From contig JABFGJ010000001.1 in the NCBI GenBank assembly GCA_013112545.1, positions 372,001 to 436,000 on the forward strand: a DNA stretch of 64,000 bases, in the 5' to 3' direction. How positions within the stretch are numbered: position 1 is the first letter of the stretch; each line of letters opens with the position of its first letter. Of the stretch, positions 3,848-5,527 are shown in pieces. The notes below the pieces were generated by a model. It had not been told where the DNA came from. It ran no database searches and saw nothing but the letters and a program-made list of their open reading frames with translations. Source of the stretch: Bacteroidota bacterium. Lineage in GTDB: Bacteria; Bacteroidota; Bacteroidia; Flavobacteriales_E; Vicingaceae. The position numbers and the translations under genes are program-made.

Positions 3848-4780
3848 TTAAATTGTATTTTCTAACACGATATCAAACTGAACTAAGTCAACAAATTGCT
3901 GTAATCGTTTACCTATTTCGTCATCAGATAGGTCAACTAAGCGTTCTGTACCGAATTTTTCAACTGAAAATGAAGCAAGTGCGCTACCATGTATCAATGC
4001 TCGTTTCATGTTTTCAAACGAAACATCTTTTGTTTGGGCTATGTACCCAATAAAACCACCAGCAAAAGTGTCGCCTGCACCAGTTGGGTCAAATACTTCT
4101 TCTAAAGGCAAAGCAGGAGCAAAAAACACTTGATTTTTATGGAACAATAAAGCACCATGCTCTCCTTTTTTAATAATTAAATATTTTGGGCCCATGCCCA
4201 TGATTTTTTGAGCAGCTTTCACTAAGGAATATTCACCAGAAAGTTGACGCGCTTCTTCGTCATTAATAGACAGTACATCCACTAATTTTAACGTTACTTT
4301 CAATTCATCCATCATGATGTCCATCCAGAAATTCATGGTGTCCATCACAATTAATTTTGGTCTTTTTCTTAAGCGCTCAATTACTTGTTTTTGAACAGAT
4401 GGCGCTAAATTCCCCAACATTAAATACTCACAATCTTGATATTCTTCTGGTATGATTGGATCAAAGTTTTCTAAGACATTCAATTGTGTGTCAATCGTGT
4501 CTCTCGTATTCATATCATTGTGATATTTTCCTGACCAAAAGAATGTTTTTTCTCCTTTCTTGATTTGAAGACCTTTGGTATTTACCCCATGTCTTTCTAA
4601 CATTTTTATATATTCCTCTGGAAAATCTTCTCCAACAACTGAAACAATGTTTACCTTGTTTACATAGTTAGAAGCAGACAAACCAATAAAAGTTGCCGCA
4701 CCACCAAGAATTTTGTCTGTTTTTCCAAATGGAGTTTCAATTGCATCAAAAGCAACTGTGCCAATCGTTAATAAGCTCAT
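3848..4780 (-). CDS. PfkB-family carbohydrate/nucleoside kinase
   Basis: This 310-residue ribokinase-fold protein has an N-terminal GGAATFIGLSA segment (substrate-binding region, about residue 26) and the C-terminal PfkB signature DPTGAGDTFAGGF (about residue 232), which contains the catalytic aspartate and the GAGD anion hole. The family phosphorylates sugars or nucleosides with ATP. The sequence alone does not fix the substrate; bacteroidotal members are often simply called sugar kinase. It is transcribed in the same direction as the Usp gene but separated by about 100 bp with a promoter-like motif between them. The start is the ATG at 4780, immediately before the first beta strand. Confidence 0.9.
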   Translation of the reverse strand: MSLLTIGTVAFDAIETPFGKTDKILGGAATFIGLSASNYVNKVNIVSVVGEDFPEEYIKMLERHGVNTKGLQIKKGEKTFFWSGKYHNDMNTRDTIDTQLNVLENFDPIIPEEYQDCEYLMLGNLAPSVQKQVIERLRKRPKLIVMDTMNFWMDIMMDELKVTLKLVDVLSINDEEARQLSGEYSLVKAAQKIMGMGPKYLIIKKGEHGALLFHKNQVFFAPALPLEEVFDPTGAGDTFAGGFIGYIAQTKDVSFENMKRALIHGSALASFSVEKFGTERLVDLSDDEIGKRLQQFVDLVQFDIVLENTI

Positions 4781-4803
4781 TAAATTTCTATTTTAATTTT
4801 TCG

Positions 4804-4811
4804 CAAAGATA
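4804..4811 (-). promoter_or_regulatory. candidate promoter -7 element for the PfkB kinase gene
   Basis: The minus strand reads TATCTTTG (TAnnTTTG consensus), 23 bp before the ATG at 4780. Confidence 0.4.
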
Positions 4812-4871
4812 TTGTTTAATTCAAAACTTTGAGGTAATATTGCAGCCCAATTCTTGATAAAAGAATTAAAG

Positions 4872-4948
4872 TTTTCCTTAGCTCAGTTGATTAGAGCATC
4901 TGATCCCGATTCATCGGGAAGGGTTCTTTTCCAATCTAACTAAGATCG
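4872..4948 (+). pseudogene. degenerate tRNA-Asn-like copy 1
   Basis: The 5' half matches the real tRNA-Asn at 5092: a mutated acceptor strand, then the D-arm GCTCAGTTGATTAGAGC and the first strand of the anticodon stem. The anticodon loop and the second stem strand are replaced by the palindrome TCCCGATTCATCGGGA (4904-4919). The T-arm and the 3' acceptor strand are absent. It cannot form a standard tRNA. Confidence 0.75.
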
Positions 4949-4981
4949 TAGTGTTGAAATAAAATTATTAGGAAATAAAAT

Positions 4982-5058
4982 TCCTCCTTAGCTCAGTTGG
5001 TTAGAGCATCTGATCCCGATTCATCGGGAAGGGTCCTTTTTCAATCTAGCTAAGATTG
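4982..5058 (+). pseudogene. degenerate tRNA-Asn-like copy 2
   Basis: It is identical to tRNA-Asn through acceptor strand, D-arm and first anticodon-stem strand (TCCTCCTTAGCTCAGTTGG onward). The palindrome TCCCGATTCATCGGGA at 5014-5029 replaces the anticodon loop. A hairpin CAATCT...AGATTG (about 5042-5058) takes the place of the T-arm. In copy 1 that second hairpin is broken by substitutions, which argues for decay rather than conserved structure. Confidence 0.75.
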
Positions 5059-5091
5059 TTGTGTTGAAATAAAATTATTAGGAAATAAAAT

Positions 5092-5165
5092 TCCTCCTTA
5101 GCTCAGTTGGTTAGAGCATCTGACTGTTAATCAGAGGGTCCTTGGTTCGAGCCCAAGAGGAGGAG
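5092..5165 (+). tRNA. tRNA-Asn (anticodon GTT)
   Basis: All arms fold. The acceptor pairs TCCTCCT (5092-5098) with AGGAGGA (5158-5164) and is followed by discriminator G. The D-arm is GCTC/GAGC. The anticodon stem TCTGA/TCAGA encloses loop CTGTTAA, giving anticodon GTT. The T-arm is CTTGG-TTCGAGC-CCAAG. CCA is not encoded, as is usual for this group. A terminator hairpin follows directly. Confidence 0.97.
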
Positions 5166-5167
5166 CA

Positions 5168-5196
5168 AAAGCCACGCAAATGCGTGGCTTTTTTTA
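5168..5196 (+). terminator. intrinsic terminator of tRNA-Asn
   Basis: The stem AAAGCCACGCA / TGCGTGGCTTT (5168-5191) has an AA loop and is followed by a T-run. It ends the tRNA transcript. Confidence 0.9.
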
Positions 5197-5223
5197 TTTT
5201 CTTACTTTTCTTAGTTTTATTTC

Positions 5224-5376
5224 ATGGGGCATTTTGTTTATATCATCTATTCTGAAAGTATTGACAAATACTACGTTGGAAAAACAAAATCAGTTCAAAA
5301 TAGACTATAGTTTCATAATTCCAAACTCAATAAAATTTGGACAAAAAAAGGCAAACCTTGGATTCTTAAAACCTAA
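5224..5376 (+). pseudogene. decayed GIY-YIG endonuclease-family gene
   Basis: In the frame of the ATG at 5224 the sequence reads MGHFVYIIYSESIDKYYVGKT, the GIY-YIG core (here YII-YYVG). It continues to QNRL, hits TAG at 5308, resumes with the FHNSKLNK and TKKGKPWILK segments, and meets TAA at 5374. Two in-frame stops in an otherwise recognisable domain mark a pseudogene. Small GIY-YIG (UPF0213/YhbQ-like) genes of about 80-100 residues are common in Bacteroidota, often beside tRNA genes. The downstream remainder to about 5527 shows only a small hairpin (5419-5433) and no gene. Confidence 0.75.
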
Positions 5377-5527
5377 TTTTACAATAGGAGAGGTATTCCT
5401 CCTAGCAACGAGACAGGTGCAACCTAGGGTTGCGCAATAGCTTGCTCATTGGTTTGGATACACTAATTTAATCTATATAAAATAGGAATAAATGTAGTGT
5501 GCGTTTATTTGATTTTTAGCGAAAAAA

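Follow-up and report, generated by a model that had tools for sequence, protein, structure and literature searches.

Nucleases and palindromes have been linked to tRNA genes, or to each other, in several described systems. SegB, a free-standing GIY-YIG homing endonuclease of T-even phages, provides the experimental precedent: it cuts inside tRNA genes and drives tandem amplification of a segment consisting of tRNA plus nuclease (PMC13096335). Like the element described here, the SegB gene lies beside tRNA genes of many isotypes. However, SegB is a phage protein that loses its toxicity upon C-terminal truncation, whereas the element encodes a single domain of ~85 aa, is chromosomal, has palindromes in place of tRNA arms and carries split tRNA pieces on both sides. 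REP/REPIN sequences and their RAYT (TnpA-REP) proteins also tie short palindromes to a resident nuclease gene, and also occur in coding and non-coding forms (PMC3116915, PMC2817692). We did not assign the element to this group: the linked protein is GIY-YIG and not an HUH/Y1 transposase, the palindromes lie inside tRNA copies instead of being dispersed between genes, and their number in the genome that contains the locus is too low (13 TCCCG..CGGGA sites in total). Group I introns in tRNA anticodon loops that bear homing endonucleases (PMC3984707) share the anticodon-loop position and the homing-type nuclease, but the tRNA-Asn gene here is uninterrupted, and an Rfam scan of positions 4600-5500 detected no intron family. 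Integrative elements with tRNA attachment sites resemble the element in that an intact tRNA is restored and a tRNA fragment is left at the far end; they differ in that the unit of the element has no integrase and its duplicated piece has a palindrome for an arm. Slx1 is a nuclease that cuts branched DNA. GIY-YIG nucleases of the Slx1/UPF0213 type are the nearest in fold and sequence to the protein of the element, but the UPF0213-type genes of the same genomes belong to a separate clade and have no tRNA link.

The locus under study lies in a stretch of 64,000 nucleotides (the window) from a genome of the family Vicingaceae, and holds two tRNA-Asn-like units in front of the tRNA-Asn gene. These units are probably the left-hand, non-coding remains of a tRNA-anchored element with an Slx1-like GIY-YIG nuclease that duplicates around tRNA genes while one intact copy is kept.

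Palindrome-bearing half units at the tRNA-Asn locus

Tandem Repeats Finder detected a single tandem array at 4875-5123 (period 110, 2.3 copies, 95% match, 0 indels), in which the 2 units and the tRNA-Asn follow each other in exact 110-bp register (Table 1). This order, the D-arms at 4881, 4991 and 5101 and the lack of the AT-rich tail ahead of unit 1 had all been described correctly in an earlier note on this DNA. ARAGORN and the Rfam tRNA model called the tRNA at 5092-5166 alone and neither of the half units, which are thus not functional tRNAs by this test. The genome has no second tRNA-Asn gene; after this one, the best matches are tRNA-Met, tRNA-Thr and tRNA-Arg. In both units, a perfect 16-nt palindrome with 6-bp arms, TCCCGATTCATCGGGA, takes the place of tRNA positions 33-43, after which the sequence rejoins tRNA-Asn at position 44 (AGGGTYC) and then diverges. 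The units fit no known RNA family, since an Rfam scan at a permissive threshold returned only tRNA and sub-threshold matches; matches to leaders or attenuators (Phe and Leu leader), which overlap the tRNA and the terminator, were taken as chance.

Table 1. Features of the tRNA-Asn locus (positions in the window)
Feature	Position	Strand	Description
Promoter-like TTG-N20-TAATATTGC	4812..4843	+	Nine-genome alignment, TAATATTGC invariant; upstream of intact tRNA-Asn (empty relatives) or unit 1 (window)
Left unit 1	4872..4981	+	tRNA-Asn positions 1-32 (29/32), palindrome, positions 44-50, diverged tail; at native tRNA position
Palindrome TCCCGATTCATCGGGA of unit 1	4904..4919	none	Stands for anticodon loop and 3' anticodon stem
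Left unit 2	4982..5091	+	tRNA-Asn positions 1-32 (32/32), palindrome, positions 44-51, diverged tail
Palindrome TCCCGATTCATCGGGA of unit 2	5014..5029	none	Identical to unit 1 palindrome
Intact tRNA-Asn(GTT)	5092..5166	+	ARAGORN, Rfam; sole copy in the genome
Rho-independent terminator	5167..5197	+	12-bp stem, T run; inverted repeat after tRNA-Asn
GIY-YIG nuclease remnant	5224..5376	+	In-frame TAG at codon 29; C-terminal third absent

The single promoter region that the earlier note had proposed for all three units corresponds to one conserved site ahead of unit 1. Pattern matching and the alignment of relatives gave no other good promoter; the one further match to the loose pattern, near 4927 and within unit 1, is not conserved among relatives. 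In relatives that lack the units (empty relatives), one tRNA-Asn lies ~20-45 bp past the promoter GCAAAGATATTGTTTAATTCAAAACTTT..TAATATTGC. The promoter alignment showed that in the window, as in three other occupied loci (L006, L007 and L039), this promoter directly precedes unit 1 rather than the tRNA-Asn. Because the promoter adjoins unit 1 here and an intact tRNA in the empty relatives, unit 1 occupies the native tRNA start and the working tRNA has shifted to a downstream position. Both the array and the promoter alignment support tandem duplication of a unit starting at the tRNA 5' end, with a single promoter for all three, as the note had suggested.

The same plan was found at tRNA-Asn in other genomes of the family, with left periods of 108 bp (L006), 106 bp (L007) and 127 bp (L037). 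In L037, a right-side array with a 379-bp unit consists of the tRNA 3' half, a terminator, a GIY-YIG ORF, a D-arm piece and the palindrome. The spacers are unrelated between genera, yet the joint TCTGA-TCCCG..CGGGA-AGGGTYC is conserved, and the variation among distinct Asn joints is almost solely of kinds that preserve the palindrome. The Asn joint pattern was matched in 7 of the 46 family genomes, and others are empty or decayed at the same promoter-tRNA locus; occupied and empty alleles thus exist at one locus, as for homing endonucleases. The earlier note favored degenerate, decayed tRNA duplicates, and the further divergence of unit 1 as compared with unit 2 and the loss of the T arm in both would agree with plain decay. 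However, in both units the anticodon part is not decayed but replaced by an identical perfect palindrome, and other genera carry palindromes with changed letters that still pair. In addition, the three intact tRNAs for which the note had proposed to search in relatives, or indeed several intact tRNA-Asn copies, were present at the locus in none of those examined, which have one intact tRNA or palindrome-bearing half units instead. The palindrome joints and the relatives led us to reject simple decay of intact tandem tRNAs, and we give plain decay of tandem duplicates very little credence. The 2 units are best read as what is left of a tRNA-anchored GIY-YIG element that has decayed, namely its left half; the note had seen neither the palindrome nor the GIY-YIG remnant, nor that unit 1 stands at the native position.

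What remains in the window is the left half and the intact tRNA-Asn; the nuclease is broken and a clear right unit is absent. Over 48 aa, the nuclease remnant shares 67% identity with the intact Asn-linked nuclease from another locus (L208). Where the right unit would be expected (5396-5433), the window contains TTCCTCCTAGC, which resembles the start of tRNA-Asn, and a perfect palindrome, GCAACC-TAG-GGTTGC; this may be a worn right unit or a chance match. For the genome G025, we rejected the idea that the element had moved off its tRNA, as a tyrosine-integrase gene sits beside a partial tRNA-Asn and the locus was probably split by an inserted island. In Vicingaceae AH-660-G13 (L209, 1254-2450), a tyrosine recombinase gene abuts a tRNA-Asn 3' part that bears a nuclease unit, and the complete tRNA-Asn is on a different contig; here the same tRNA appears to have been the integration site of a genomic island that parted the element from it.

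The GIY-YIG nuclease and its element at other tRNA genes

The complete element has the order left unit(s), intact tRNA with its terminator, ~85-aa Slx1-like GIY-YIG ORF, and right unit. Left units, of which there are one or more, comprise a tRNA 5' piece, a perfect palindrome, a short tRNA remnant and a spacer, and right units a piece from inside the tRNA, a palindrome of the same kind, a tRNA 3' piece and often a second terminator; either kind can be tandemly amplified. The repeat units (106-457 bp) contain a GIY-YIG ORF only or no ORF. None has an integrase, which sets them apart from tRNA-integrating islands. This layout could also be explained by classical homing, in which the nuclease would cut an empty tRNA allele and a palindrome-bounded donor carrying its own rescue tRNA would be copied in. 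Indeed, the left end is the host 5' half with the promoter, the right end is the host 3' half with the terminator, a complete tRNA lies between them, and presence at one locus is patchy. The carried tRNA, however, is not recoded; being identical to the empty allele it would itself be a target, which counts against the simplest form of homing. Moreover, some loci have a right unit alone (e.g., L286), which duplication explains more simply, and we regard classical homing as quite unlikely.

The nuclease consists of a single domain of ~85 aa that scored 50-61 bits with PF01541 (Pfam cut-off 22.6) and hence belongs to the GIY-YIG superfamily, although the window copy itself is broken. Among 25 relatives, the catalytic residues Y17, R27, H31 and E64 are invariant and Y6 is present in more than 90%. 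The structure was predicted with a pLDDT of 93.7, and the closest PDB matches by fold and sequence are Slx1 and UPF0213 (6seh, 1zg2). Interspecies comparisons gave pS values of 0.73-1.09 (near saturation) and pN values of 0.11-0.22; because pN is well below pS, intact copies are under purifying selection as proteins. In a tree of 75 family proteins, none of the 38 UPF0213-type GIY-YIG proteins is encoded near a tRNA, and a second clade is mostly tRNA-linked, with subclades that track tRNA identity. The nuclease tree clusters by order, with exceptions, and is compatible with transfer or descent. A tblastn search with an 84-aa nuclease against 50,697 phage records gave no match at 1e-4, and thus no similarity to the SegB family; neither the plasmid collection nor the defense-system models and NCBIfam gave a match.

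Beyond tRNA-Asn, the genome of the window has GIY-YIG genes at tRNA-Arg(TCT), two tRNA-Met genes and tRNA-Pro(GGG). The tRNA-Arg(TCT) locus shows the full plan of left palindrome unit, tRNA, nuclease and right palindrome unit, and one of the 2 tRNA-Met loci shows a downstream nuclease only. Upstream of tRNA-Pro(GGG), two tandem 362-bp units each contain a GIY-YIG ORF and a pseudo-tRNA in which the D and T arms have both been swapped for TCACGC..GCGTGA palindromes and the anticodon arm is retained (L063, G000 C14, 1385-2189). Beside the 23S rRNA gene of the same genome (L298, G000 C17, minus strand, ~1845-1890 and 2160-2200), tRNA-Ala(TGC) lies between palindrome-bearing tRNA-Ala pieces. The left one contains TCCCGATTTGTATCGGGA. 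The locus has only a short stretch and no visible nuclease; the same plan is here seen without a nuclease, inside an rRNA operon. A UPF0213-type GIY-YIG gene (L061, G000 C13, 1001-2300) lies within repeats of TCATTGCGAGGAG..GACGAAGCAATCT, which suggests a link to palindromic repeats for a further GIY-YIG branch as well.

We analyzed 2 larger sets of loci, of which a few recur in both. The class-wide sample comprised loci ranked by their resemblance to a model made from tRNA-linked nucleases; adjacency to a tRNA was not itself a criterion. A same-strand tRNA was found within 400 bp at 60 of its 69 nuclease loci; 58 of these 60 had extra pieces of the same tRNA, and in 49 there was a palindrome at a piece. 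The named-genome collection was searched with the Asn nuclease lineage and gave 79 nuclease genes, 58 of them with a same-strand tRNA within 400 bp and 9 more cut by contig ends; tRNA pieces were present at 57 loci and a palindrome joint at 53. The records of this collection include cultured strains of Acidiluteibacter, Cryomorpha, Pedobacter, Chryseobacterium, Algoriphagus and Marinilabilia, as well as others labelled Ignavibacteriota, Balneolota and Rhodothermota; a few (Thioalkalivibrio, Caldithrix) may be misbinned. Judged from these sequences, elements of this kind appear to occupy many different tRNA genes across Bacteroidota and related phyla. Arrays of near-identical nuclease units reach 5 to 10 copies. 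At tRNA-Met, L109 has ten units (457-bp period) and L108 eight (~379-bp period), pointing to very recent amplification.

Palindrome joints and their level of selection

When joints were picked by their flanks alone, 53 of the 67 distinct ones were perfect palindromes, whereas shuffling of the inserted letters gave 1.9 on average and 6 at most. The palindrome replaces the anticodon arm, whole or in part, in Asn, Arg, Val, Ala and Met; it lies in the D arm in Leu and in some Arg, Val and Asn, and in the T arm in some Val, Pro and Phe. In many nucleases the ORF extends across the tRNA piece on the right and the palindrome, which supply the C-terminus LAQLVRVPHVRD. Such an end is also seen in many ORFs of the Asn-linked nucleases with the 25/36 joint (L215-L283), where the palindrome doubles as coding sequence. 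It is conceivable that REP-like palindromes enter tRNA arms, or take their place, in some other way and that the GIY-YIG gene hitchhikes at tRNA loci, as units without a visible nuclease exist (e.g., the pseudo-Ala units of the rRNA operon mentioned above) and palindrome position and sequence vary by tRNA group. Nevertheless, the count in the genome of the window is well under REP abundance, and nuclease lineage, tRNA identity and palindrome position covary. This makes the REP-like explanation distinctly improbable.

The joints contain 368 Watson-Crick pairs versus 11 G-U pairs. Because Watson-Crick pairs far exceed G-U pairs, this suggests that palindrome pairing is maintained at the DNA level, and there are fewer wobbles than RNA-level selection predicts. 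The latter would apply if the palindrome-bearing half tRNAs had a function as RNA, be it as leader hairpins, decoys or processing signals, and the nuclease gene were incidental. The units do lie downstream of the tRNA promoter, and left units show more stable folding than shuffled sequences (median z -2.0; 50 of 99 below -2, in a set that includes a few complete tRNA copies). Flanks also pair somewhat above chance once the palindrome is removed (z below -1.64 in 13 of 40 and above +1.64 in none). This folding signal is, however, owed largely to the palindrome and to inherited tRNA pairing; spacers and tails vary between genera, and empty relatives have no units. An RNA function of the units is possible, but it is not needed to explain the data, and we consider it unlikely that such a function accounts for the locus. 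A GIY-YIG-linked mobile element explains more than tRNA-derived RNAs with another role, a possibility that the earlier note had raised.

Proposed mechanism and significance

We infer cleavage and movement by the nuclease from these patterns, the preferred reading being the tRNA-anchored GIY-YIG element. The nuclease would nick or cut at the palindrome or a cruciform, or in the tRNA-gene arm that the palindrome replaces. Repair of the break, or a single crossover, through the short flanking tRNA homologies could then add units before or behind the tRNA, with homology 1-32 serving for gain in front and homology 44-75 for gain behind. The survivors would be only those products with one intact tRNA, because the tRNA gene is essential and, here, single-copy; this need to keep the tRNA intact would also account for the asymmetry between left and right units. 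If the same event recurred at the native 5' half, the exact 110-bp register would follow. Products of exactly this kind would result if the chromosomal tRNA underwent a single crossover with a small circle bearing a tRNA fragment with a palindrome. Transcription probably runs through the units into the tRNA, so that they form a leader to be removed by RNase P. Some points speak against the element reading: a nuclease that simply recognizes the tRNA gene should cut its own locus, because the intact tRNA-Asn in the element is identical to that of the empty relatives; and tandem duplication could occur without a nuclease. Regarding movement, no strain pair differing by the element alone was found, and the nuclease was absent from the phage and plasmid collections.

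More broadly, and with the balance leaning slightly against it, we tentatively propose a new class of minimal mobile elements in Bacteroidota and related phyla. In these, an ~85-aa Slx1-like nuclease would act on palindromes in tRNA copies and use tRNA homology for insertion and amplification, always leaving one working tRNA, with nuclease-bearing and satellite forms and lineages specialized by isotype. The literature library that we searched, which has few of the subscription papers and no preprints, contained no description of tRNA-linked GIY-YIG palindrome elements, and the element is apparently undescribed so far. Half tRNAs and small GIY-YIG ORFs beside tRNA genes appear to be common in Bacteroidota genomes and to have gone unremarked before. 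If the element reading is true, a selfish element of ~350-460 bp has repeatedly colonized essential tRNA genes, turning an arm into a palindrome and sparing a working copy. It would then be a compact bacterial counterpart of phage SegB amplification, and experiments could then address the way in which a GIY-YIG enzyme of a single domain locates its target, as well as the reason why elements of this sort are drawn to essential, conserved genes.
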